Source: Fodinicurvata sp. EGI_FJ10296 (GTDB lineage: Bacteria; Pseudomonadota; Alphaproteobacteria; DSM-16000; Inquilinaceae). From it: a stretch of DNA of 64,000 nt. Location: NCBI RefSeq assembly GCF_040712075.1, contig NZ_JBFCVL010000001.1, forward strand, positions 565,501-629,500, written 5' to 3'. The notes under the pieces were generated by a model, which was not told where the DNA came from, did no database searches, and saw only the letters and a program-made list of their open reading frames with translations. Of this stretch, positions 41,398 to 54,970 are shown piece after piece. The first letter of the stretch is position 1. Each line of letters starts with the position of its first letter. The position numbers were made by a program, and so were the translations under genes.

Positions 41398-42270
41398 TCA
41401 GAGACCCAGCCGATCCAGCGTGGACTCGATCCCACGGGCATAGCTGGTGTCCCAATAACGGACATGAACCAGCAGCGGGTAGATCAGATACAGGTCGCGC
41501 CGGATATCGAAGAAGGCCGGATCCAGTCCCCGGCGCTCGCGATAGCGATCGAAGAACCGTTGGCCGAAGGTGTTGAACATCGTGATGAAGGCAAGTTCGA
41601 TCTCCGGGTGTCCCCAGTAGATCGCCGGGTCGATCAGTGCGGCGATCCGGCCGTCGCGCGCGATCACGTTGCCCGTCCACACATCGCCGTGCAGCAGGCT
41701 TGGATGGTCGGGTTCGGTCAGATACCTGTCCAGTCGGCCGGCGAGCGTTTCCAGCCGGCGGCGAAGTCTGTCTGGCACGGTCCGCTCGCGGTTTCCTGCC
41801 TCGGCCATGTGCAGCAGCCGATGATCGCGATAGAACGCCAGCCAGTTGTCGGTGCGCGGATTCGGCTGCGGCAATTGGCCGATCACGGTATCGCGGGTAT
41901 AGCCGAAAGCCGGCTGCGGCCGGTCATGGAGTGCCGCCAGGATATCGGCGGCGTGCTCCTCGGTCCCCGCCGAGCCGACCGTGCGATCGCCCGCGATGAA
42001 GGCCATGATCAGCAGGTCGTCCTCGCCGAACAGCACGTCCGGCACCGGAACGATACCGTCGGCCGCGAGGTCGTCGAGCATCGAGCGTTCGACGGCCAGA
42101 TGGTCGTTCAGGCGGCCGCGCCCGTGCTTCACGACGACGTGGCGACCATCCTGCAGCACCATTTCCTCGACGGTGACAGTCGAACCGCCCTGAAGGACCC
42201 TTCGCCGAACGGGGGCGGCACCAAGCGCCGCGTCGACCCGGACAGCGATGGACGCCGCCGCGGCGGTCAT
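41398..42270 (-). CDS. Fructosamine/ketosamine-3-kinase family protein
   Basis: A 290-residue aminoglycoside-phosphotransferase-fold kinase. GGSTVTVEEMVLQDGRHVVVKHG carries the ATP-binding Lys, HGDVWTGNVIA is the catalytic loop and IDPAIYWGHPEIELAF the metal-binding DPA motif, which is characteristic of the fructosamine-3-kinase/YniA family. The family phosphorylates the sugar of glycated amines so that the adduct falls off. Its start overlaps the end of the tyrosine phosphatase gene by 4 bp (ATGA); this pairing (LMW-PTP with FN3K) is found in other bacteria and suggests a shared role in protein deglycation. Confidence 0.9.
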   Translation of the reverse strand: MTAAAASIAVRVDAALGAAPVRRRVLQGGSTVTVEEMVLQDGRHVVVKHGRGRLNDHLAVERSMLDDLAADGIVPVPDVLFGEDDLLIMAFIAGDRTVGSAGTEEHAADILAALHDRPQPAFGYTRDTVIGQLPQPNPRTDNWLAFYRDHRLLHMAEAGNRERTVPDRLRRRLETLAGRLDRYLTEPDHPSLLHGDVWTGNVIARDGRIAALIDPAIYWGHPEIELAFITMFNTFGQRFFDRYRERRGLDPAFFDIRRDLYLIYPLLVHVRYWDTSYARGIESTLDRLGL

Positions 42271-42755
42271 CCGCCGGCCGCTTCGTTGTTGGCCCGGCTT
42301 TCCCTGGCCACGGCGGCGATAACCGCATCGACACCCAGGTCGATCATGTCGAAGACGTCGTCAAAGCCCTCGTCGGCGCCGTACCAGGGATCGGGGATAT
42401 CCAGCGCGGGCGCGTTGTCCACATAGGCCATCAGCAGCCGGGCCCGATCTTCGAGGCCTGGAGGCGCAAGCTGCTGCAGCGTTCGCACATGGCGCCGGTC
42501 CATGCCGATCAGCAGGTCGAAGGCGCGGAAATCATCGGCGCGGATTCGGCGCGCCGTCCGCCTGGGCATGACGACGCCCCGGCTTTCGGCAACCTGTGTG
42601 GATCGCGGGTGCGGCGGATTGCCCGATTCCTCCGACGAGGTGCCGGCGCTATCCACTTCGACGGTCAGCCCCTGCAGCGCCGCCTTGTGCCTGAAGATGG
42701 CCTCGGCCGTGGGCGACCGGCATATGTTGCCCGTGCAAACGAACAGGATGCGCAT
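42267..42755 (-). CDS. Low molecular weight protein-tyrosine phosphatase
   Basis: Start ATG 42755 (162 residues); the open frame is longer but runs upstream through non-homologous sequence. The P-loop is FVCTGNICRSPTAEA (C7-x5-R13-S), and the general acid Asp is in IPDPWYG near residue 130. The family removes phosphate from tyrosine or from small aryl and sugar phosphates. Not fused to a kinase and not in a capsule operon; the overlap with the fructosamine-kinase gene points to the YfkJ-YwlE/FN3K type of housekeeping role rather than exopolysaccharide control. Confidence 0.93.
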   Translation of the reverse strand: MRILFVCTGNICRSPTAEAIFRHKAALQGLTVEVDSAGTSSEESGNPPHPRSTQVAESRGVVMPRRTARRIRADDFRAFDLLIGMDRRHVRTLQQLAPPGLEDRARLLMAYVDNAPALDIPDPWYGADEGFDDVFDMIDLGVDAVIAAVARESRANNEAAGG

Positions 42756-42856
42756 TTGTCTCTCGTTCTCCGGCGGTTGTGGTGCGGCCACTTCTCCCCT
42801 TAGCATGTTCGGGACTGGCGATGAACCCCGGCCCCCAATCCTGGAAACCGGATCAA

Positions 42857-43606
42857 ATGACCCTGATCGACCGCTTGCCCGCCCCTGATGACCGGATCGT
42901 GATCCTGACCGGGGCCGGTATCTCCAAGGAGTCCGGCCTGGATACCTTTCGCGATGCCGACGGAATCTGGGCGCGGGTGCGCCTGGAAGACGTGGCGACG
43001 CCGGAAGCGTTCGCCGCCGATCCCGACCGCGTTCAGGCGTTCTACAACGATCGCCGCCGGATGCTGCGCGAGGCCGATATCCGTCCAAATGCCGCCCACG
43101 AGGCTCTCGCCCGGCTCGAAGCGGCATGGCCGGGTGAAGTCGTGGTAGTGACCCAGAATATCGACGATCTGCATGAACGCGCCGGAACGCGTGCGCTGAT
43201 CCATATGCATGGAGAACTGCTGAAAGCCCGATGCATGGCGTGTGACGCGATCAACGTCCACATCGATGATCTCGGCGCCAGGACACCGTGTCCGGCCTGC
43301 ACGGCGACCGGGGCGCTGCGGCCTCATGTCGTCTGGTTCGGGGAAATGCCGCTGGAGATGGAACGGATCGGCGATCTGTTGGGCGATTGTGGACTGTTTG
43401 TCGCCATCGGCACGTCGGGAACCGTCTATCCGGCAGCCGGGTTCGTGCAGGAGGCCCGGTTCCACGGCCGCGCACGCACGGTGGAGATCAATCTTGAGCC
43501 GTCCGAGGGGCACACGCTGTTCCATGACTGTCACCACGGACCCGCCGGAACACTGGTGCCGAGACTGGTCGGCGACCTGCTTGCCCATGCCAACCGATCG
43601 GACTGA
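42857..43606 (+). CDS. cobB: NAD-dependent protein deacylase (sirtuin, class III)
   Basis: CobB removes acyl groups from lysine side chains, consuming NAD+. The start is placed at ATG 42857 (249 residues); an ATG at 42821 would add 12. Motifs: ILTGAGISKESGLDTFRDADGIW (NAD), TQNIDDLHERAG, HMHGE (catalytic His), zinc motifs CMAC and CPAC, and IGTSGTVYPAAGF. FYNDRRRM carries the Y-x2-R pair that in CobB and SIRT5 binds acidic acyl groups, so desuccinylase/demalonylase activity is expected besides deacetylation. The last 20 bp overlap the following gene. Confidence 0.94.
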   Translation: MTLIDRLPAPDDRIVILTGAGISKESGLDTFRDADGIWARVRLEDVATPEAFAADPDRVQAFYNDRRRMLREADIRPNAAHEALARLEAAWPGEVVVVTQNIDDLHERAGTRALIHMHGELLKARCMACDAINVHIDDLGARTPCPACTATGALRPHVVWFGEMPLEMERIGDLLGDCGLFVAIGTSGTVYPAAGFVQEARFHGRARTVEINLEPSEGHTLFHDCHHGPAGTLVPRLVGDLLAHANRSD

Positions 43607-44249
43607 TCCGGCCCCGGATTTGGCCCCGGAGCAGACCCAGGATCAAATCCTGGAGCAGACCCTGGCGGCCGTCCGGGCCTGCCGCGTCTGCGCGGCCCAT
43701 TTGCCTCACGAACCCCGGCCCGTGGTCCGGCTGGCGCCGACGGCGCGGATCCTCGTCATGGGGCAGGCGCCGGGGCGACGGGTCCATGAAACCGGCGTGC
43801 CATGGAACGACGCCAGCGGCGACCGGCTGCGCGACTGGATGGGGCTGGACCGCGATGCGTTCTACGATACTGCCGGCATCGCCATCGTCCCGGCGGGGTT
43901 CTGCTACCCCGGCACCGACGCACGCGGCGGCGATCGTCCGCCCCGCCCGGAATGCGCACCGCTCTGGCACCCGAGGCTCAAGGGCTTTCTGACCGAGATC
44001 CGGCTGACGATATTGGTCGGGTCGTATGCGCAACGACTGGAACTCGGCCGCGCCCGGCGGACGTCGTTGACCGAGACGGTTCGACGCTGGCGGGAATACG
44101 GCCCCGACGTCATCCCTCTGCCACACCCCAGTTGGCGCAATACTGCCTGGATTCGCCGCAATCCGTGGTTCGAGGCCGAATTGCTGCCGGAACTGCGGGC
44201 TCGCGTGCGCCAGCTTGTGCTCAATGAGCCTGGTGATCGTCAAGCATAG
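43587..44249 (+). CDS. Uracil-DNA glycosylase superfamily protein
   Basis: A 220-residue member of the UDG fold, starting at ATG 43587 inside the sirtuin gene; the longer frame from 43242 is antisense-free but overlaps the sirtuin completely and is not conserved. N-terminal C32-x2-C35 (CRVC) plus Cys in GFCYPG and PECAPLWHP could bind a 4Fe-4S cluster, as in family 4/5 enzymes. MGQAPGRRVHETGVPWNDASGDRLRDWMG is motif 1, and HPSWRN the motif 2 loop. The family removes uracil or other damaged bases; activity of this branch (COG1573-like) is not certain. The stop overlaps the convergent ABC gene by 10 bp. Confidence 0.8.
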   Translation: MPTDRTDPAPDLAPEQTQDQILEQTLAAVRACRVCAAHLPHEPRPVVRLAPTARILVMGQAPGRRVHETGVPWNDASGDRLRDWMGLDRDAFYDTAGIAIVPAGFCYPGTDARGGDRPPRPECAPLWHPRLKGFLTEIRLTILVGSYAQRLELGRARRTSLTETVRRWREYGPDVIPLPHPSWRNTAWIRRNPWFEAELLPELRARVRQLVLNEPGDRQA

Positions 44250-45973
44250 GCCACCGCACGGACCGTTTCTCTGGCGCCGGTGCCGGCCGGGCCGGTGGCG
44301 GCAGCAGTGGCGTCGGGTTCCAGAGCGCGGGCGGCATCCAGCAGTCGTCGCGTGATGTCCGACGCTGGCGACTGGAAAACCTGATGACGCGGCCCTTCTT
44401 CGATGATGGCGCCGTCGGCCATGACCGCGACCCGATCGCAGAGATGGGACACGACGGCCAGATCGTGGCTTATGAACAACAGGCTCAGGCCGCGCGCCGC
44501 TTGCAGATCGGACAGCAGGTTCAGGATCTGCGCCTGAACCGAAACATCGAGGGCGGAGACGATCTCGTCGCAGATCAGGAGATCGGGGCCGAGCGCCAGC
44601 GCGCGGGCAATGGTCACGCGCTGGCGCTGACCACCGGAAAGTTCCGCCGGATAGCGGTCAATCAGGCCCCGTGCCAGTCCGACTTCGTCCATCAGCCGGG
44701 CGATGGTCGGCGCCCGATCCGGTCCGGCATTCAAACCGTGTATATCCAGGGGCTCGGCCAACGCCTGTCTCAGCGACATCCGGGGGTTCAGCGCGCCATA
44801 GGCATCCTGAAAGACGTATTGAATTTGCCGTCGCAGGGCGCGGGAATAGCGGCCCGGATCGCGAATGCCCTGTCCTTCGAACGCCATCCGCCCGGACTGT
44901 GGTCTGACCAGCCCGACGATCGCTTTGGCGAGGGTGCTTTTGCCGCTGCCGCTTTCCCCCACGATGCCGACAATGCTGGACCGCGGCAGGGTCAGGTCGA
45001 CATCCTCCACCGCCGTGATCGGTGGCGACAGCAGACCGCGGCCCGGATAGCGGACGGTCAGGCCGCGAACGGACAGGATGGCGGGCTCGTCGGCCGGGGC
45101 GCGGATCATCGTGTCCGGTCCCGGGGCCATCGATGGGAAGTCGTCGACCGTGTCGACCGTAGGCAGCCGGGGACGCCGGGTGTCGACCGTGGGGCTGCAG
45201 GCGACCAGCGCCCGCGTATAGGCGTCGTGCGGGGCGGACAGGATCCGGGAGACCGGGCCGCGTTCGACCACGGCGCCGGCGCGAAGAATGACGACATCCT
45301 GTGCCAGCCGCGACACGACCCCGAGGTCGTGCGAAATGATCAGGATGGCCATGCCGCGCATTTTCTGAATGCGCTGCAGGAGATCGAGGATCTGCGCCTG
45401 CACCGTCATGTCCAGGGCCGTCGTCGGTTCGTCCGCGATCAGCAGGTCCGGATTGCCGGACAGCGCCATGGCGATCATCACGCGTTGCTGCTGTCCGCCG
45501 GACAGTTCGTGCGGATAGCGTTGCTCGACGCCTTCCAGACCGCCCAGGCCGACTTCACCGAGCAGATTGCGGACAATGTCCTGCCGATCCCGGCGGCTTG
45601 TGTCGGCGGCTCGGGCCGCCTCGGCGATCTGGTTGCCGACGGTCATCAGCGGGTTCAGGGCGGCAGCGGGATCCTGGAACACGGTACCGATCCGCCGGCC
45701 CCGGATCCGGCGCAGGCCGGCGGGATCTAGTGTCAGGAGGTCATGTCCGCGAAACAACGCCTGTCCACTCATGGCGATGTCGCCATTCACCGATGTCAGC
45801 CCGATGATCGACATCGCCGTCATGGTCTTGCCGGAGCCCGATTCGCCGACCAGCGCCAGCGTCCCGCCGGGCGCGATTTCGAACGACACGTTTCGGACCG
45901 CCTGGATATGCTGGCCCTTCGTTTTCAGGGTGACCGACAGGTCGCGCACCTGAAGCAGCAATTCGTTCGTCAT
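44240..45973 (-). CDS. Dipeptide-type ABC transporter, fused double ATP-binding protein
   Basis: 577 residues carrying two nucleotide-binding domains in one chain, equivalent to DppD plus DppF (YejF-like). Domain 1: Walker [13 protein letters not shown], signature LSGGQQQRV, Walker B LLIADEPT. Domain 2: Walker [12 protein letters not shown], signature LSGGQRQRV, Walker [13 protein letters not shown]. It powers the two membrane subunits encoded upstream, overlapping the first by 4 bp (ATGA). The oligopeptide C-terminal zinc/Cys region usual in DppD is absent; the tail is Ala-rich. Last gene of the phnA-transporter unit. Confidence 0.93.
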
Positions 45974-46899
45974 GTTCTTCTCAACCTCGGATCCATGAAG
46001 CGCTGAAGCATGTCGCTGGCGAGATTCGCCGCGACCACGGCAAGCCCGAGCCAGATGACGACGGCCTGGACGACGGGATAGTCGCGCCCCTGAACGGCCT
46101 GGAGGGTCATCGTGCCGAGACCGGAAAGTCCGAAGACGACCTCCATCGTGATGGCCCCGGTCAGGGCGCCGGCCATCAGCAGACCGGAAATGGCGACGAC
46201 GACCGTGAAAGCGTTGGGCAGGATGTGAAAAACCACGATCCGCGCCCGGCTGATGCCCTTGGACCGGGCGGTTCGCACGAACTCCGCCCGGTCGGTATCG
46301 CGCATGTCCTCGTGCAGCATCTTGGCCAGCGTTCCGGCCGTGTCGGCGCCGAGTATCAAGGCCGGTACAACCAGATTGCCGATCGCCGGTATCCAGTCGA
46401 GCCAGACCGCGAACACGATCACACTGATGATGCCGATGGAGAAAGTCGGCATGGTGATCGACCAGATCGTGATGAACTCGACCAGAGCGACAAAAATCGA
46501 TCGGGGGTAGATGCAGGCGAGCGTCGGAAGGGCGATGCCTACGGTCAGACCGACCAGCAGCGCCGTGCCGCCCAGGATCAGCGTCGCCGGCAGCGCCGTC
46601 ATCAGCAGGTCGGAGATCGGTGTGCCGAAGCGGAGCGACGAGCCGAAATCGCCGCCAAGGATCATGCCCAGCCAGTCCGCGAACTGGGCCGGCCAGCCCC
46701 GGTCGAGGCCCAGATCCTCGCGCAGGACCGCCTGCTGGCCATAGGTCAGCGATCCTTCCAGTCCCAGAACGTCAACCACGTCGCCGGGTACCATCCGGAT
46801 CAGAAAGAAGCTGAACACCACGATCGCGGAAGCGATCAGCAACGATCGGCCGAGATCCGAGGCGATGCTGACGAAAAGTTCGATCCTCTGCCGGTTCAT
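45970..46899 (-). CDS. Dipeptide-type ABC transporter permease (DppB-like)
   Basis: A 309-residue inner-membrane subunit with six predicted membrane segments. SFFLIRMVPGDVVDVLG is the DppB-specific N-terminal periplasmic opening, and the EAA loop reads EFVRTARSKGISRARIVVFHILPNA. It pairs with the DppC-like subunit, and both overlapping junctions (ATGA) suggest one translational block. The gene order is substrate-binding protein, DppC-like, DppB-like, ATPase, so B and C are swapped relative to E. coli dpp. Confidence 0.92.
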   Translation of the reverse strand: MNRQRIELFVSIASDLGRSLLIASAIVVFSFFLIRMVPGDVVDVLGLEGSLTYGQQAVLREDLGLDRGWPAQFADWLGMILGGDFGSSLRFGTPISDLLMTALPATLILGGTALLVGLTVGIALPTLACIYPRSIFVALVEFITIWSITMPTFSIGIISVIVFAVWLDWIPAIGNLVVPALILGADTAGTLAKMLHEDMRDTDRAEFVRTARSKGISRARIVVFHILPNAFTVVVAISGLLMAGALTGAITMEVVFGLSGLGTMTLQAVQGRDYPVVQAVVIWLGLAVVAANLASDMLQRFMDPRLRRT

Positions 46900-47753
46900 A
46901 ACGAAATCCTCCGTCGGGCGGGGTCGAAGCGTTGACGCAGGGCGTCGCCCACGATCGCCAGAGCGAAGGTCACGATGCTGAGCACCAGAATGGGCAGAAG
47001 CACCGCGTGCGGCGCGGCCTCGGTATAGTTGGTGGCGTTGGCGATCATCCGGCCCCAGGTCGGGGTTTCGGGGGACACACCAAGGCCGAGGAAGCTGAGT
47101 ACCGACTCCAGAACGATGCAGCGGGGCAGGATGATGGCGAACTGCGTGATCAGGGCGCCAGCAATGTTCGGCAATACGTGAGCCAGGGCGATCCGAAGGC
47201 GGCTGGCGCCGAGCACGAAGGCTGCCGCCGTGTAGGGTCGCGCCATCTGCTGCTTATAGGTCGCACGTGTAATCAGTGCGAAATTCGGCGAGAACGATAT
47301 GCCCAGCGCGATGATGACCGATGCTGCGCCCGGTTCGAACGCCGAAACGAACGCAAGGGCGAACAGGATGCCGGGCAGCGCCCGGATCAGGTCGATGCCC
47401 GCAAAGACGGCCGTTTCGGCGACGCGGCCAAGGGCCAGCGCCGCCAGCGCCGCCAGTCCGCCGATCGCCAGGGCGATCAACGCAGCACTGAACCCGAAAA
47501 AGAGGCTGAGCCGGGTCCCGACCAGGAGCCGGGAATAAATATCCTGGCCCTTGTCGTCAGTGCCCAGCCAATGATCGGCGTTCGGGGGCTCGTTCATCCG
47601 GATGCTGAACTGATAGGGATCGTGGGTCACCAGCAGCGGTCCGAATGCGACGACAAGCAGCGCGATCGACAGGATGCCCAGGCCCAGCCAGGTCACCGCC
47701 GGCAAGTCGGGGATACGCCGGCGGACATAAGAATCGATTGTGGTCGTAGCCAT
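46896..47753 (-). CDS. Dipeptide-type ABC transporter permease (DppC-like)
   Basis: A 285-residue membrane subunit. The N-terminal helix (LPAVTWLGLGILSIALLVVAFGPLL) is followed by HDPYQFSIRMNEPPNADHWLGTDDKGQDIYSRLLVGTR, the classic DppC/OppC cytoplasm-facing/periplasmic signature, then five further segments and the EAA-like AFVLGASRLRIALAHVLPN. It ends overlapping the DppB-like gene by 4 bp. It lies 32 bp after the substrate-binding protein gene. Confidence 0.93.
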   Translation of the reverse strand: MATTTIDSYVRRRIPDLPAVTWLGLGILSIALLVVAFGPLLVTHDPYQFSIRMNEPPNADHWLGTDDKGQDIYSRLLVGTRLSLFFGFSAALIALAIGGLAALAALALGRVAETAVFAGIDLIRALPGILFALAFVSAFEPGAASVIIALGISFSPNFALITRATYKQQMARPYTAAAFVLGASRLRIALAHVLPNIAGALITQFAIILPRCIVLESVLSFLGLGVSPETPTWGRMIANATNYTEAAPHAVLLPILVLSIVTFALAIVGDALRQRFDPARRRISL

Positions 47754-47785: not shown

Positions 47786-49312
47786 TTACTGCGAGAGCCA
47801 GGCGAATGCCAGGCCGCCGTCCACGCGGTGGGCGGAGGTGTTGAAGGCGACCGTGAAGTCATTGACTTCGGAGCGAATGCCATATGCGGCCGGGGCATGG
47901 CCGAGAACGACGGTGTAGTAGTTGTCCATGATCCGTTGCCAGGCTTCGAGGTAGTGGCGGCGGCTCTCCTGAGGATCGGCGGTCGAAATCGCGTCGGTAA
48001 TCATGGCGTCGAGTTCAGCGTCCTGCACACCGCCCCACAGGCCGGGGTTGGGGCCGTCGCTCATGAACCGCACGTAGCGCAGGAAGATGTCGTTCCGCGG
48101 CCCGGATCCGCCGGGGAAGATGTCCCAATCGTATTCCGACAGGCGGCGCTGGAAGCCAAGGTCGTCATAGGCGCGGTTGTCGATCTGGAACCCGAGCTGT
48201 TGCAGTGTCTGGACGACGGGTCCGGAAAGACGGGAATTCGGCTCGGAGACCATCTGCACCGTGACGGCCGAGGGGTCGACGCCTTCTTCCTCCAGAATTG
48301 CGCGTGCGCGATCAAGATCGGCCTCGCCATGCCGGTCTTCTGCTGCGATGGTTTCGTCGTAGTAGAAGCTGTCTTCCGTCACCATCTGATTGCTGTCGAT
48401 GGCAAACCGGCCACTATGGATCGTCATCAGGGTCTTGCGATCCATTGCATGGGCGACAGCTTCGCGAACCCTGACATTGTCGAACGGCGGGTTCGGGTTC
48501 CGGTTGTTGAACGAGAGGAAGTACCAGCTCGTGTCGGCACGGAACTGAACACCGATCTCCGGGTCGTCCTCGGCGGCACTCACGGCGGACAGCGGGATGG
48601 TGGCGGCGTGGAAGTCGCCAGCGCGCAGGGCCAGGGAGGCGTCGGCGATCTCGCGGACGTCGAACACGACGCCGTCCAGATAGGGCTGGCCGTCCATCCA
48701 GTAATCATCGAATCGCTCGCCGACGATTTCCAGCTGTGGCACCCAGCTATCGAACGTGAACGGCCCCGTGCCGATCGGCTGTGTGATTGTTTCGTCCCAG
48801 CCCGGAGTTTCCGGCGCGATGATCCAGGCTTCGGCAATCAGGTTCAGGAATGGCGCGAACGGCTCCGACAGCGTAACGACAAAGGTCGTATCGTCGGGCG
48901 CTTCCATGCTGGCGACCTTGTCAAGGGCGCTCGTCAGCCAGCCGCCGGAAACCTCGCGTTTGATCCGCTCGAAATTGGCCAGAACATCGGCGGCGGTCAT
49001 TTCCCGTCCGTTGTGGAACAGTACGCCTTCGCGAATGTCAAAGGTGTAGATCAGGCCATCGTCCGAGATCGTCCAGTTTTCGGCGAGCATGCCGCGCGGC
49101 TGCCCATCGGCCGAGATCGAGGTCAACGTTTCCACGAAGGGGTGCGTCAGGGAGATCGTCCCGGTATGACGGTGGAAATCCGCAGTATCCAGCGTGCCCC
49201 ATTTCAGATGCATGGTACCGCCGTATTGGGGATCGTCGGCCAATGCGGTTGCGCTGCTCGCCACCAGAATGGTGGTCGCGGCCAAAGCCGCCTTGATCTG
49301 TCGGTTCATCAT
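47786..49312 (-). CDS. ABC transporter substrate-binding protein (SBP family 5)
   Basis: A periplasmic binding protein of 508 residues. The signal peptide (about 1-25) ends ALA, with the mature protein starting DDPQYGG. Family 5 features: GGTMHLKWGTLDTADFHRHTG, LAENWTISDDGLIYTFDIREGVLFHNGREMTAADVLANFERI and REAVAHAMDRKTLM. These proteins bind peptides, nickel, opines, oligosaccharides and other small ligands, so the family does not fix the ligand. Because the gene lies in a unit with phosphonoacetate hydrolase, a phosphonate-containing ligand is the leading hypothesis. It begins 51 bp after the phosphohydrolase gene. Confidence 0.92.
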   Translation of the reverse strand: MMNRQIKAALAATTILVASSATALADDPQYGGTMHLKWGTLDTADFHRHTGTISLTHPFVETLTSISADGQPRGMLAENWTISDDGLIYTFDIREGVLFHNGREMTAADVLANFERIKREVSGGWLTSALDKVASMEAPDDTTFVVTLSEPFAPFLNLIAEAWIIAPETPGWDETITQPIGTGPFTFDSWVPQLEIVGERFDDYWMDGQPYLDGVVFDVREIADASLALRAGDFHAATIPLSAVSAAEDDPEIGVQFRADTSWYFLSFNNRNPNPPFDNVRVREAVAHAMDRKTLMTIHSGRFAIDSNQMVTEDSFYYDETIAAEDRHGEADLDRARAILEEEGVDPSAVTVQMVSEPNSRLSGPVVQTLQQLGFQIDNRAYDDLGFQRRLSEYDWDIFPGGSGPRNDIFLRYVRFMSDGPNPGLWGGVQDAELDAMITDAISTADPQESRRHYLEAWQRIMDNYYTVVLGHAPAAYGIRSEVNDFTVAFNTSAHRVDGGLAFAWLSQ

Positions 49313-49363: not shown

Positions 49364-50662
49364 TCAGTTGCGTGAAAGGGCCATGCCGTCCATTCCGTGG
49401 CGGGGCAGGCCCAGATGTCTGAGGATGGTCGGGGCGATATCGACCAGATGGCTGCGGCCGTATTCGATGGTTCCCGCAGCGAAGCCGCCCCCGTTGACGA
49501 TCAGAAAGGGATGCCGTTCGAAGCGGCCGAGGCCGCCGTGGCTGCCGCGACCGACCGGTTTGCCGGGTTTGGCGCCCGAGACGCCCCCCGAGACGCACAG
49601 CGTGATGCGCCCCGGAACGCCATTCCCGTTGGGGGCTTCGTCGCGCGCCATGGCAAAGGCGATCTGAAGTCCGGCTTCCGGCGCCTGGCCCAGTGGGCGC
49701 ATCGCGTCGCCGACGAATACCTCGGCAATAGCCGGGTGATCGGCAAGAAAGGCCGCCACCCGGTCGCGCCGCGCCAATCCTTCACCGGCCATGTAGACCA
49801 GCCCGCTGCCGCCTTGCGGTGCGACCACCACCTCGGTGGAGTCGGCATGGTCCTTGAGGCCCGCCCCGACAAGCAGATCGTCGACGGCGACATGGGCCAT
49901 CACCGTTTCCTGGCCGTGATCGGACGCGACGATGAAAAGTACGTCCTCTCCCTGAGCCCTTAGTGCTTCGACCGCGTCGCGGGCTTCGGCAAAGCAGGCG
50001 TCGGCGGCGGCGATTCCCGCCAGATGGGTGGTGGAGCCGAGCGCGTCGGCGTGCATCGAGAGGTCGGGATCGGACAGCCACAGCACGCTGAGCGCCGGTC
50101 CGCCGCGAACGATGGCGCGGCCGCACATCCAGCGGGTCAGATCCCGATCTCCGGCGGCATCGTGGCTCACGATCGGGGCTTCATCGGCCGTCAGTGGCCG
50201 TCCGCCCGGCCCGAAGGCGCCGGCGCGATGCACGACTTCGCCGAAGTGGTCGGGGTCGTGGAAATAGGCCGCGCCCGGGGACACATTCGATGCGATGACG
50301 GCGCCGCCGTGATTGGCCAACCGTTCGGCCAGCGTCGGAACCCGCAGCGTTCTCCCGAATGCCTCGCGCATCTTTCCGCGGAAGGCCGGATCGCCGACAT
50401 CGTGAATCCTTACGCCACCGGCCTCCGGCAGCCCCATCATGTTGCCATGCAGCCCGTGGGTTGCCGGCCAGCAGCCGGTCGCGATCGACGCCGCGCTGGC
50501 CCGCGTCGCTGATGGGAAGATGGCTGTATGGTTGCCAAAACGGCGGCTCTCTGCGCTGAATGCCGCGATCTCGGGGCAATAGTCGGGCGTGACGAAATCG
50601 GCACGATGGCCGTCGCAGATCAGGAGCACGACGCGCCGGTTGCTTCGGGTTTCGGCGATCAT
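49364..50662 (-). CDS. Alkaline-phosphatase-superfamily enzyme (nucleotide pyrophosphatase/phosphodiesterase type)
   Basis: A 432-residue hydrolase of unknown substrate without a signal peptide. Two-metal site: D17 (LLICDGHR), nucleophile T53 (FPSATRASAASIATG), D200 and H204 (DPDLSMHAD), D248 and H249 (ASDHGQ), H375 (GSHGG). This is the layout of NPP-like phosphodiesterases and of PhnA. It lacks PhnA's PNN loop and substrate lysines, so it is a different enzyme and not a phnA copy. The ATG overlaps the phnA stop by 4 bp (ATGA), so both are made together. It may cleave an ester or anhydride in the imported compound to expose phosphonoacetate; that role is an inference. Confidence 0.8.
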   Translation of the reverse strand: MIAETRSNRRVVLLICDGHRADFVTPDYCPEIAAFSAESRRFGNHTAIFPSATRASAASIATGCWPATHGLHGNMMGLPEAGGVRIHDVGDPAFRGKMREAFGRTLRVPTLAERLANHGGAVIASNVSPGAAYFHDPDHFGEVVHRAGAFGPGGRPLTADEAPIVSHDAAGDRDLTRWMCGRAIVRGGPALSVLWLSDPDLSMHADALGSTTHLAGIAAADACFAEARDAVEALRAQGEDVLFIVASDHGQETVMAHVAVDDLLVGAGLKDHADSTEVVVAPQGGSGLVYMAGEGLARRDRVAAFLADHPAIAEVFVGDAMRPLGQAPEAGLQIAFAMARDEAPNGNGVPGRITLCVSGGVSGAKPGKPVGRGSHGGLGRFERHPFLIVNGGGFAAGTIEYGRSHLVDIAPTILRHLGLPRHGMDGMALSRN

Positions 50663-51942
50663 GCGACCACTCCATTCAATGCGTAATCGAAGATGTCATA
50701 GGTCCACAGGCCGCCTGATGCGCGGGCGGCATACGACGCGGTGACCGGGTGTGAGAGCAGAAAGGGAACCGCCTGTTCCGCCGGCCCGCCATGGGATCGC
50801 AGCCGTTGTCCTGCCAACTGAGACAGGTCGTGGTCCGCTGCGCCCGCGCCCAGCGCGACACCTTTTTCGGCGAACACGACGACGTCGGCTTCCTCTGCCA
50901 ACGGCAGGTCGAACCGGTCGCATGCGTCGGCGCCGACCACGGCGGCCTCGATGCCGGGCACGTCCTGAAGTGCCCGGACGACATCGCCGGCCGCCACGCC
51001 GTCCTGTTGCGCATAGACCCGGACGAAGCCGCCGAGGGCGGCGTGATGGCGTCCGAACGGGTCGGTGATCGGGCAGATGACGCGGGTCGATCCGTGACCG
51101 AAAGCGGCGTTCAGGACATCCTGCACGAATACGACGTTGGGGCTGCCGTCGGCATGGGACATGTCGGTCATGCCGTGGTCGGCCACGATGCCGACAATGG
51201 CGCCGAGCATCGTCAGCCGGGCGACACGCGCATCCAGGGCGGCCATGAAGGCCAGCGCCTCCGGCGTGTCCGGCGCATGGGCGTGCTGGACGAAGTCCGA
51301 AAGCGACAGATAGATCAGGTCGGCCGCCCGGCGCTCCAGCAGTCGTATGCCGGCATCGAGCACGAAGAGCGACAGGTCGGCGGAATACTTGTCCGGGGCG
51401 GATGCGAAGGGTCGGCCCTCGTTGATCAGGTCAAAGGCTTCGGCCGGGTCCTCGGCCGAACAGGCGATGCCCCTCAAGCCCCGTGCCAGTGCCAGACGCA
51501 GCTTTCGTTTCGCGGTGACCACCGCGACCCGGACGTGTTCCTGAGACAGGCGGCCGGGAATGGTGTCGGCGCGCATCTGCGCTTCGTCCAGCATCATGAC
51601 TTCGCGGCCGGTCCGGCGATCAAGATAATAATTTCCGGAAATACCGTGCACGGAAGGCGGTGCGCCGCAGACGATCGAAATATTGTTGGGATTCGTGAAG
51701 GTCGGCACGACGGCCCTGGCGGTGGCGTGAAAGCCGTCGCGGCTCATGCGCCCCAGGGTCGGCGCGACTCCGTGTGCAATCGCCGCCTCCAGATATTCCG
51801 GCCCGCAGCCATCGGCGCAGATGACGGCCACTGGTTGTCGAGGGTGCCGATAGACACGGCCGTTCACTTCGGTAAAGGGGCGATCGGCCGGGTCCGCTGT
51901 CGGGTTCGGTGCGGGGGGCATCGCCAAACTGTCATCGTTCAT
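50659..51942 (-). CDS. phnA: Phosphonoacetate hydrolase
   Basis: PhnA splits the C-P bond of phosphonoacetate to acetate and phosphate. The start is ATG 51942 (427 residues; ATG 51921 is an alternative), since upstream sequence is unrelated to the family. Alignment by eye with characterised PhnA gives D44, nucleophile T83 in the VPTFTNPNN loop, phosphonate-binding K145 and K147 (AKRKLR), D216 and H220 (SDFVQHAHAP), D255 and H256 (ADHGMTD), H384 (LRSHGG). APPSVHGISGNYY is family-specific. No signal peptide, so cytoplasmic. It is the first gene of the transporter unit and divergent from a LysR gene, as in known phnA operons. Confidence 0.93.
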   Translation of the reverse strand: MNDDSLAMPPAPNPTADPADRPFTEVNGRVYRHPRQPVAVICADGCGPEYLEAAIAHGVAPTLGRMSRDGFHATARAVVPTFTNPNNISIVCGAPPSVHGISGNYYLDRRTGREVMMLDEAQMRADTIPGRLSQEHVRVAVVTAKRKLRLALARGLRGIACSAEDPAEAFDLINEGRPFASAPDKYSADLSLFVLDAGIRLLERRAADLIYLSLSDFVQHAHAPDTPEALAFMAALDARVARLTMLGAIVGIVADHGMTDMSHADGSPNVVFVQDVLNAAFGHGSTRVICPITDPFGRHHAALGGFVRVYAQQDGVAAGDVVRALQDVPGIEAAVVGADACDRFDLPLAEEADVVVFAEKGVALGAGAADHDLSQLAGQRLRSHGGPAEQAVPFLLSHPVTASYAARASGGLWTYDIFDYALNGVVA

Positions 51943-52044: not shown

Positions 52045-53049
52045 ATGGAACACAGTCCAAGAAATTTGCCGTCTACCAAAGCGTTGTTCGCGTTGGAGAG
52101 AGTCGTGTTTCATGAAAGTATAAAAAAAGCTTCAGAAGATCTTCACGTTACACATAGCGCCGTCAGCAAGCAGATCACGCTGTTGGAGGATTGGGTGGGG
52201 CAAACACTTTTCGACAAAAATCAACGTCGCATGGTGCCGACGCCCAATGCCCTTGTGCTGGCCGATGCCGCGCGCGATGTGCGCCAGGTGATCGGCGATG
52301 CGTTGACCCGGATCGGCGCGGGCCCGGTCGACGGCGTGCTGAGGATCGCTGCACCGGCGACATTTGCCATGCGCTGGCTGATTCCCCGGTTGTGGAGCTT
52401 TTCGAACGAGCATGACGGGGTGTCGGTCAAGGTCATTGCCAGTCACACAGGAGAGCCGTGGGAAGAAACAGCCTATGATGTCGCGATCCAGCCGGCGTCT
52501 CGGGCGCCGCTCGGCGCCTCGACAACGCCTGTCTTCAGTGAATCCCTTGGGCTGCTGATCGCGCCCGATGCGTTTCCCAAAAGCGTCGCGGCCGGTCGTC
52601 TGATCATGTCTCGACTGCCGCTTCTCAAGGCCGCAACCAGGGATGGCGAACTCGAAAACTGGCTGGAATTCGCCGGTCACAGCCGGGGGCTGGCCCGGAC
52701 CGCCCGCTGCTTTCCGCATTTCTATATTGCGCTGGAGGCGGCCCTGGCAGGGGAAGGGGCGCTGGTCTCGCCGATCCTGACGACTGGCGATCTGATCCGG
52801 AAGGGCGATCTTTGCGAACCGCTGCCCCAGTTCCGGGTGCCGGGCGAAGACTATGTTGCTTTCGCAGCCCCCGGGTCCGATCACCGCCATCACGGGTCGC
52901 GCTTTATCAACTGGTTGACCCGGTCGGCCGGCAAGGCGGCGTTGGCGTCGTCGCCGAACGCCCGCGCTGAGGGGCGGGCGACCCGTCCGGCGGGGCCAGT
53001 GGGTCGGAACGGATCCGGCCCGTTCAGTCAGTCCGGGGCGGAAAGGTAA
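52045..53049 (+). CDS. LysR-family transcriptional regulator (GcvA/PhnR-like)
   Basis: 334 residues preceded by GGTGAGGAA. The winged HTH is residues about 8-68 (STKALFALERVVFHESIKKASEDLHVTHSAVSKQITLLEDWVG). The effector domain follows (VDGVLRIAAPATFAMRWLIPRLWSF, then LLIAPDAF and GEGALVSPILTT). The context, back-to-back with phnA, suggests it senses phosphonoacetate or a precursor and activates the transporter-hydrolase unit. Odd feature: the first 150 bp are clearly AT-rich while the rest is GC-rich, and the C-terminal 30 residues are Gly/Pro/Arg-rich. The last 26 bp overlap the convergent PhoD-like gene. Confidence 0.88.
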   Translation: MEHSPRNLPSTKALFALERVVFHESIKKASEDLHVTHSAVSKQITLLEDWVGQTLFDKNQRRMVPTPNALVLADAARDVRQVIGDALTRIGAGPVDGVLRIAAPATFAMRWLIPRLWSFSNEHDGVSVKVIASHTGEPWEETAYDVAIQPASRAPLGASTTPVFSESLGLLIAPDAFPKSVAAGRLIMSRLPLLKAATRDGELENWLEFAGHSRGLARTARCFPHFYIALEAALAGEGALVSPILTTGDLIRKGDLCEPLPQFRVPGEDYVAFAAPGSDHRHHGSRFINWLTRSAGKAALASSPNARAEGRATRPAGPVGRNGSGPFSQSGAER

Positions 53050-54970
53050 CAGTCGTGCCATCGGCGCCGATCTGGCTGATCGTCGTCGGTCGGCCGTCGC
53101 CATCGAAGACGACATGGCCGACGCCGCTGCCGTTCCAGAGCCGCTCGCTCGCGCTGGCCTTGTCGGGAATGCGGGGCGACACTTCCATCCTCCTGCGCTT
53201 GGTCAGCCAGTTCAGCGGCGACCATGGCGCATAAAGCCACCGGTTCAGCCGATCGAAGATATCGAGGAGTCGACGAGGAAACTCGTTCTTGATGCCGCTG
53301 CTGGTAATCTGCCAGATTTCGGGGCCGGCCTCGCGCTGGCGGATGCGCACGTCGTAAACGAACGAATAGTGGACATCGCCGGACAGGATGACATAGCGCC
53401 CCGGCGTCTTGCTGTGGCGAAAGATATTCAGCATGACCATGGCGGCGCCGCGATGGGCCATCCAGTTCTCGGCGTCGACGACCAGCGGGTGCCCCGCCAT
53501 CGTGAACAGCCGCTGGATGCCTTCGATCAGCTTTACCCCGAACATCGGCGCGGGAGACACGACCACTACGGAGTCGCGGCCCAGCAGGTCCTGCTGCAGT
53601 TCGGTCAGGGCCTCCCAATCCATCAGGCCGGACGGATTGCGGGCGCTGAGCTCGCTGCGCCAGCGCCGTGTCCGGGTGTCCAGCACGACGAGCTTCGGCG
53701 TCGTTTCGATCGAGAAATGCCATTGCTCGAATTTGAGAAGATCGTCGATGAAGGCATCGTGTTCGGCGGCGGGCAGTCGGCCGGCCGGCTCGCTTGCGGC
53801 CAGCAGGCAGGAAAGGCGGCCGATGGGGTTGGCCACTCGATCCGGCGCGTTGCCCCAGGCCTGGCACAGCAGATAGCCCGTCAGCGCATTGCCGATGATC
53901 TGGCGCGAGAACGGGTGGCCATAAACCGCAGCTTCCCATTCCGCCGACAGATTCCAGTCGTCCGTGACGTCGTGGTCGTCGAAGATCATCAGGGTCGGGA
54001 TCTGCGCCATCACCCGTGCCGCCGCCGGCAACTCGGTGACGAACGCATCGATCACGGACTGCTCGCGGTCATAGCGCGCGGACTCCTCATCCGACAATGC
54101 CGGTTTGGTCGGTGCGATCAAAGTCCACCCCACCGGCGACCACACCAGCAGATACATGGCCAGGATCTCGGCCAGTGTGATGAGGTGGTTGTCGGCACTG
54201 GCGGTCGTGAAGATTGGCTTCTCCACGCCACCGAAGAACCGGTCGCGCAGGGTGGCGGTCGATTCCATCGCGGGCAGCAGATTCTGGCGGCGATAGTAGG
54301 ATTCCGGGGCCTGGCAGAGTGCTCGGCCATCCGGAACGATGGCGCCCTCCAGGTCCTCGTCGAACAAGCCCAGCCGATCGATAAGGGCGTGGATCGCGCG
54401 GAGCACGGGTCCGGCCACGTCGTCGGCATATACCTGATCGCCGGTGAACAGCATATGGGCGGGCCGGGCCTCGGCATCAGTCCGTCTTGCGGCGAGCCAT
54501 GCATCGATGGCGGTAAGCCCGTCGCCTGATTTATGGTGCGGGCGGCGGCACGATCCGTGCAATACGCTGTCGAGACGCGACTTGATGACGAATCGTGGCG
54601 ACGCCTCGTCCGGATAAACAAGATGGGGCGCATAGTCGGCGATGCCTGTCTCGCCACCGCTCCCGGCAATCCGAAGATCGTAGGCCAGCAATGTATCGAC
54701 CGGCAGCGGCACCTCGGGATGGAAATCGATCAGGTGAATGACCGCATGCCGACCGACGCGCAATCGTTGGCAGGATGCCTCGGGCAAGTTGACGGGCTGG
54801 GCGTCGTCGACCGGCCCCAGCCGCAATGTCGGCGCCAGATCGTCCGTCGCGACCAGCCAGAAGACAACGCGTGTCGGCGAAACATGGCGCAGCAACGGGC
54901 CAGCCAGCACCGGCGGCAGCGGCAGTGCGGCCGGATCGCCGGGAAGGTCGTCGGGAGCGGAAGAATTCAT
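53024..54970 (-). CDS. PhoD-like metallophosphatase
   Basis: A 648-residue protein of the PhoD/alkaline phosphatase D family. The N-terminal beta-rich domain (about 20-130) precedes the metallophosphatase core: LHGSCRRPHHKSGDG, MLFTGDQVYADD, IFDDHDVTDDWN and LSGDVHYSFVYDV, which are the metal-binding signatures. There is no Tat or Sec signal peptide, in contrast to classical PhoD, so it is cytoplasmic as read. Length exceeds secreted PhoD by about 100 residues. It may act on phosphodiesters or phosphomonoesters. It is convergent with the lysR gene of the phnA cluster (26 bp overlap), so a link with phosphorus scavenging is possible but not shown. Confidence 0.85.
   Translation of the reverse strand: MNSSAPDDLPGDPAALPLPPVLAGPLLRHVSPTRVVFWLVATDDLAPTLRLGPVDDAQPVNLPEASCQRLRVGRHAVIHLIDFHPEVPLPVDTLLAYDLRIAGSGGETGIADYAPHLVYPDEASPRFVIKSRLDSVLHGSCRRPHHKSGDGLTAIDAWLAARRTDAEARPAHMLFTGDQVYADDVAGPVLRAIHALIDRLGLFDEDLEGAIVPDGRALCQAPESYYRRQNLLPAMESTATLRDRFFGGVEKPIFTTASADNHLITLAEILAMYLLVWSPVGWTLIAPTKPALSDEESARYDREQSVIDAFVTELPAAARVMAQIPTLMIFDDHDVTDDWNLSAEWEAAVYGHPFSRQIIGNALTGYLLCQAWGNAPDRVANPIGRLSCLLAASEPAGRLPAAEHDAFIDDLLKFEQWHFSIETTPKLVVLDTRTRRWRSELSARNPSGLMDWEALTELQQDLLGRDSVVVVSPAPMFGVKLIEGIQRLFTMAGHPLVVDAENWMAHRGAAMVMLNIFRHSKTPGRYVILSGDVHYSFVYDVRIRQREAGPEIWQITSSGIKNEFPRRLLDIFDRLNRWLYAPWSPLNWLTKRRRMEVSPRIPDKASASERLWNGSGVGHVVFDGDGRPTTISQIGADGTTVTFPPRTD

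Follow-up and report, generated by a model that had tools for sequence, protein, structure and literature searches.

A nucleotide pyrophosphatase-like hydrolase gene recurrently coupled to phnA, with a possible role in the use of phosphonoacetate conjugates

We found that the gene directly behind phnA in a 64,000-nucleotide stretch of the Fodinicurvata sp. EGI_FJ10296 genome (the window) encodes a hydrolase resembling the nucleotide pyrophosphatases/phosphodiesterases (NPPs), here called ORF2, and that the pair recurs with tight spacing in two lineages of ORF2 relatives. By its sequence ORF2 would be a cytosolic two-metal hydrolase with a Thr nucleophile, from the NPP group within the alkaline-phosphatase superfamily. 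Our preferred explanation, held tentatively, is that ORF2 cuts the P-O ester in a phosphonoacetate conjugate that the cell imports, after which PhnA cuts the C-P bond. The superfamily and the C-P hydrolase are both known; here they stand in a recurrent combination whose substrate is putative.

Table 1. Features of the phnA-ORF2 operon and its divergent regulator (window coordinates).
Feature	Coordinates	Strand	Basis
Fused double ABC ATPase, 4-base overlap with OppB-type gene	44240..45973	-	PF00005 twice
ABC permease (OppB type), 4-base overlap with OppC-type gene	45970..46899	-	PF00528
ABC permease (OppC type)	46896..47753	-	PF00528
Solute-binding protein, family 5 (Opp/Dpp/NikA type)	47786..49312	-	PF00496, E 5.7e-77
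ORF2, NPP-like (PF01663) hydrolase, 432 aa, ATG start, probably cytosolic	49364..50662	-	PF01663, clade A tree, invariant metal site
Nucleophile stretch P50-S-A-T53-R54-A-S56 of ORF2	50495..50515	-	T53, R54 invariant in 20/20
ATGA overlap, phnA stop / ORF2 start	50659..50662	-	Sequence
phnA, phosphonoacetate hydrolase	50659..51942	-	TIGR02335, 511.7 bits; PDB 1ei6, E 1.9e-99
LysR-family regulator, divergent from phnA	52045..53049	+	PF00126, PF03466

The operon runs in the order phnA, ORF2, Opp/Dpp-type ABC importer (Table 1). The gene upstream of ORF2 is phnA: its product far exceeds the TIGR02335 cut-off (407.55 bits), has the PhnA Lys pair, and finds 1ei6 as its best PDB match (336.8 bits). 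The longest phnA frame extends to 52113, across the lysR start, so the gene more probably begins with the ATG at 51942. Four bases belong to both genes where the phnA stop (50661-50659) meets the ORF2 start (50662-50660); the ORF2 ATG overlaps the phnA stop codon, and the preliminary description is upheld on this point as on the coordinates, strand and length of the gene. Four-base overlaps are frequent in operons, so this one says little by itself; the recurrence of the coupling says more.

Two neighboring regions are recorded here as side observations. A PhoD-like phosphatase gene (53024-54970; PF09423, 9e-9) lies on the strand opposite lysR, the two genes overlapping at their 3′ ends; it was compared with the PhoD-like gene in the Variovorax cluster treated below as a possible counterpart, which was rejected since the two are barely alike (best E 0.054). 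At 41398-44249 a fructosamine-kinase-family gene, a low-molecular-weight phosphotyrosine phosphatase frame, a Sir2 gene and a uracil-DNA-glycosylase-superfamily gene stand side by side.

ORF2 matches PF01663 (type I phosphodiesterase/nucleotide pyrophosphatase) at 72.3 bits (gathering cut-off 23, E 7.4e-20). A tree of 28 ORF2 relatives, kept from 49 hits after 21 short loci duplicating wider ones were dropped, divided with full support into a clade A of 20 rows and a clade B of 8. Searched against the PDB, a profile of the 20 clade-A relatives matched ENPP4 (4.1e-12), ENPP7 (1.1e-11) and the Xac NPP (9e-11), and more weakly phosphonate monoester hydrolase (3.9e-9) and PhnA (5e-6). The alignment profile was needed, since phmmer with ORF2 alone gave no PDB match at 0.001. 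Judged on these scores ORF2 is an NPP-like protein of PF01663 and not a PhnA; a reading of ORF2 as a PhnA duplicate was rejected on a TIGR02335 score of 20.2 bits together with the closer profile match to NPPs.

All seven metal-site residues of the NPP/PhnA fold that had been listed for ORF2 (D17, T53, D200, H204, D248, H249 and H375) are present and identical in 20/20 clade-A relatives, giving the full ligand and nucleophile set of the NPP-type site of the alkaline-phosphatase superfamily, with metal roles assigned by analogy. Further invariants in these 20 rows are R54 beside the nucleophile, N74, N126-x-S-P-G, H145-R146 and D172. The eight clade-B rows keep T53, followed by Arg in seven and Lys in one, and have a different stretch where clade A has SNVSPGAA.

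With the NPP/ENPP proteins (Xac NPP, 2gsn; ENPP4, 4lqy) ORF2 shares PF01663, the two-metal site residues, the Thr nucleophile and a conserved Asn after the nucleophile stretch. It differs from them in the Arg that follows Thr in 20/20, the SNVSPGAA-like motif and the operon with phnA, and in being known from sequence alone. It differs also in its N-terminus: no signal peptide was seen by eye in the 20 clade-A N-termini, which begin near the first beta-strand motif when start codons are chosen by script. ORF2 is therefore probably cytosolic and would need an imported substrate.

With PhnA (TIGR02335; 1ei6, 3szy) ORF2 has in common the superfamily, the metal-site residues and the operon, yet it lacks two hallmarks. 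The P-N-N after the nucleophile and both Lys residues are invariant in 15 aligned PhnAs, the window PhnA among them (a set different from the 15 loci of the PhnA subclade described below). At the P-N-N site ORF2 reads P-S-A-T-R-A-S. The Lys pair faces N126 and S128 of ORF2 in the profile alignment and a gap in a four-sequence MAFFT alignment, so ORF2 is without the pair; the absence of loop and lysines reported earlier is upheld in both alignments. According to passages of a review (PMC10574752), the two lysines of PhnA should stabilize the leaving group. Their absence from ORF2, and its closer sequence relation to NPPs, make it very improbable that ORF2 works alongside PhnA as a further C-P hydrolase, or a related one, with a different small phosphonate as substrate, whatever the common superfamily, metal site and operon might suggest.

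The phosphonate monoester hydrolases (PMH/PEH; 4upk, 2w8s) act on the bond type proposed for ORF2, to which they have the weak profile similarity given above. PMH reportedly uses a formylglycine nucleophile, whereas the clade-A residue is Thr in 20/20 and not a formylglycine (Cys). Structure prediction for ORF2 gave pLDDT 42.5 and pTM 0.51 from a 2-row alignment, and pLDDT 38.1 from a 4-row alignment including PhnA, values too low for either model to be used. A Foldseek search with the pLDDT 42.5 model returned nothing at E <= 0.001; its top rows, a sulfatase and ENPP3 chains, are consistent with the superfamily and say no more.

ORF2 stands directly behind phnA in 9/20 clade-A loci: the window, Microvirga brassicacearum (L001), Microvirga sp. 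VF16 (L004), Rhizobium sp. 007 (L006), Phyllobacterium zundukense (L007), and L029, L035, L037 and L119. L035 and L037 are near-copies, leaving eight distinct cases. The spacing between the two genes is -4 to +2 bases in eight of the nine pairs; in the ninth (L001) it is +47 from the first ATG, or -4 if an upstream GTG is the start. Two ORF2 lineages are represented, one by the window and L001 and the other by the remaining seven, and a tree with all nine constrained to one clade was disfavored, weakly (p-AU 0.036). Variovorax paradoxus (L003) has phnA and ORF2 in one cluster with seven genes between, while phnA was absent from the stretch examined in the other 10 clade-A loci and the 8 clade-B loci.

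The importer beside the pair is of Opp type in seven cases, PhnDEC in one (L006) and Ugp-like in one (L119), where the ATPase, at 379 bits, falls short of the 432-bit cut-off. Importer type varies, then, while the phnA-ORF2 pair persists. An amidase gene lies near five of the nine pairs (L006, L007, L035, L037, L119); this count covers L001 only to just beyond the ATPase, where its stretch ends. In the Variovorax cluster phnA and ORF2 are accompanied by an amidase, a phosphonate-type Fe-alcohol dehydrogenase (TIGR03405), PhnY (TIGR03250), an Opp-type importer and a calcineurin-like phosphodiesterase. Directly ahead of ORF2 in Allorhizobium pseudoryzae (L005) is a calcineurin-like phosphodiesterase gene, with no phnA in the stretch. 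Two clade-B relatives (L008, L009) lie on plasmids, in operons that combine an Opp-type importer with DeoR/GlpR regulators; neither stretch contains phnA. A search for ORF2 relatives in viral contigs confirmed none.

These loci bear on two further explanations. ORF2 could be a mobile gene, accessory to ABC importers, placed behind phnA by chance and without pathway meaning, as the numerous lone relatives and the plasmid location of some loci would allow; this is unlikely given that the pair recurs in two lineages and keeps its coupled spacing, and that within the order of the window the same 4/17 genomes carry both genes, adjacent in all four. A real though doubtful possibility is that ORF2 acts, as a phosphodiesterase or phosphatase, on ordinary organophosphates that the cell imports, such as glycerophosphodiesters, and shares its operon with phnA because both supply phosphorus, without one enzyme feeding the other. 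Phosphodiesterases head the ORF2 profile matches, one pair has the Ugp-like ATPase, the two annotated clade-B relatives keep company with DeoR/GlpR regulators, and lone ORF2 genes abound in the family f66 considered below, all of which suit this explanation; it fits less well with a pair that stays tightly coupled in nine loci and two lineages despite importer swaps, and with PhnDEC among the importers. The calcineurin-like phosphodiesterase genes adjoining two relatives, one of them without phnA in the stretch, would fit a general phosphodiester pathway equally.

The PhnA side of the pair is also distinctive. In a tree of 59 PhnAs built by a quick method, with the short phnA loci L044-L073 and other duplicates left out, all nine ORF2-paired PhnAs fall in one 15-member subclade (SH-aLRT 100). 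A phnY or phnW gene is nearby in 1/15 subclade loci vs 38/44 others (Fisher 3.8e-8), with thresholds of 300 bits for phnY and 200 bits for phnW and some loci stopping at contig ends; the 15 were partly picked via ORF2 hits or plasmids, which makes the ratio something other than an unbiased rate. The exception is L119, with phnY about 7 kb from phnA. In L101 and L107 a nearby aldehyde dehydrogenase is 31-33% identical to PhnY, under the 300-bit line. Excerpts of a census of Hyphomicrobiales and Rhodobacterales give phnA as clustered with phnY in 121/145 cases (PMC12366243). Six subclade PhnAs have no ORF2 in the stretch (L121, L122, L086, L101, L107, L112); phosphonate-transporter genes lie near the phnA of L122 and L086, and fragments of such genes near that of L121. 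The last is on an Allorhizobium ampelinum S4 plasmid, where phnA and lysR stand beside short phosphonate-binding-protein and ABC ATPase fragments (L121, 11890-12678) in a region adjoining trb genes.

The host genome of the window (99.4% complete) has no PhnW, PhnY or PhnJ match above cut-off; below it the aldehyde-dehydrogenase model has 11 weaker matches and the aminotransferase model has 2. A tblastn search of the window with the amidase, an SpdA-like phosphodiesterase and PhnY found nothing at 1e-3. With no PhnY, PhnW or PhnJ over cut-off, the PhnA substrate in this host would seem not to come from a recognizable PhnW/PhnY route, though an unrecognized equivalent may exist.

The preliminary description had called ORF2 a dedicated second hydrolase beside PhnA, and genome counts do not support that word. 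In a class sample of 385 genomes, 11 carry a clade-A ORF2 and 44 carry phnA; phnA is present in 10/11 of the clade-A genomes vs 34/374 others, and ORF2 is adjacent to it in only 3/11. In a phylum sample of 398 genomes, clade-A ORF2 occurs in four, two of them with phnA adjacent. Among the 75 genomes of family f66, 56 have ORF2, 71 have phnA and 54 have both, and no ORF2 was seen beside phnA among the 56 carriers when the listed places were compared by eye, though since these genomes are mostly drafts a few adjacencies split between contigs could be missed. The two genes are on different contigs there, or separated by more than 300 kb where they share a contig (G081, G766, G803), and the context of ORF2 is scattered in the loci read. 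These low or nil adjacency counts indicate that clade A, taken together, has no fixed link to phnA, and they bear out the first part of what the earlier description had set against its own proposal, namely that homologues stand mostly without phnA.

Co-occurrence across genomes was rejected as proof of a pathway: lineage and lifestyle confound the class sample, and within f66 there is no association (phnA in 54/56 ORF2 carriers vs 17/19 non-carriers, p 0.26). Two details of the f66 loci may be added. A TctC-type receptor gene directly precedes a lone ORF2 in L183 (7575-8582), with a similar gene in three other loci, and two ORF2 homologues, L160 (G788) and G803:C1:2188463-2189701, each have one in-frame TGA as listed.

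Under our preferred explanation, the Opp/Dpp-type importer would bring the conjugate into the cell, ORF2 would open its P-O ester, a phosphonate monoester, to yield an alcohol and phosphonoacetate, and PhnA would cleave the C-P bond of the released phosphonoacetate to acetate and phosphate. A phosphonate monoester chemically resembles a phosphodiester. The substrate would be an O-ester of phosphonoacetate because ORF2 adjoins phnA in operons that have no dehydrogenase to make phosphonoacetate. This route is favored by the recurrence of a tightly spaced pair in two lineages through importer swaps, the scarcity of phnY and phnW in the PhnA subclade, the sharing of both genes by the same genomes of the order, and the phosphodiesterases that are the closest solved relatives of ORF2. 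Against it stand the clade-A relatives outside the order, most of which are not beside phnA, the six subclade PhnAs without ORF2, and the PhnY-like aldehyde dehydrogenase in L101 and L107. The two-step degradation proposed earlier thus accords with the coupling, the importers and the scarcity of phnY and phnW, while the order of the steps, like the bond cut, is something we infer.

Several reports bear on this route. Portions of one describe phosphonate esters in marine organic matter, with alkaline-phosphatase-like enzymes postulated for their hydrolysis (PMC5649143). O-phosphonoacetic acid serine, an actinomycete product, is a natural phosphonoacetate conjugate for which a nucleotidyl-phosphonoacetate intermediate has been proposed, according to parts of two papers (PMC12288639, PMC12723261). 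The proposed intermediate suggests linkage through phosphorus, and if so linked the compound is a candidate ORF2 substrate. We would extend the proposal only hesitantly to an ORF2 specialized for phosphonoacetate O-esters, such as O-phosphonoacetyl-serine and nucleotidyl or glyceryl phosphonoacetate, that together with its importer defines a catabolic route for a pool of natural conjugates.

Two known systems resemble this arrangement. The agrocinopine system AccA-AccF is a precedent in which, according to excerpts of PMC4526662, the phosphodiester taken up by a cluster C binding protein goes to a phosphodiesterase; the window operon likewise joins such a binding protein to a putative phosphodiesterase. 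Unlike the proposed ORF2 route, the agrocinopine system deals with a sugar phosphodiester and has no phosphonate step. The PhnW-PhnY-PhnA pathway and the Pbf feeder enzymes, the latter discovered through gene context (sections of PMC12366243), feed PhnA as proposed for ORF2. The present case differs in that neither PhnW nor PhnY scores above cut-off in the host, and in that the feeder would be an ester hydrolase.

Searches of open-licence papers gave no listing that names a pair of the phnA-ORF2 type, and none was found with 'phosphonoacetate hydrolase' and 'alkaline phosphatase family protein' together. The terms 'alkaline phosphatase' and 'phosphodiesterase' are absent from the main text of PMC10590968, as is 'alkaline phosphatase' from that of PMC12366243, and the available portions of PMC9381506 and PMC10574752 describe no such partner gene for phnA.

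The pair bears on the source of the PhnA substrate outside the 2-aminoethylphosphonate route. As late as 1979 phosphonoacetate was termed 'not a naturally occurring compound' (cited from a part of PMC12288639), and a partner that recurs beside PhnA and has an importer of its own offers a direct handle on natural compounds that contain it. The pair also helps to assign one more 'alkaline phosphatase family protein'. If true, the conjugate route would account for PhnA operons in which PhnW and PhnY are missing.
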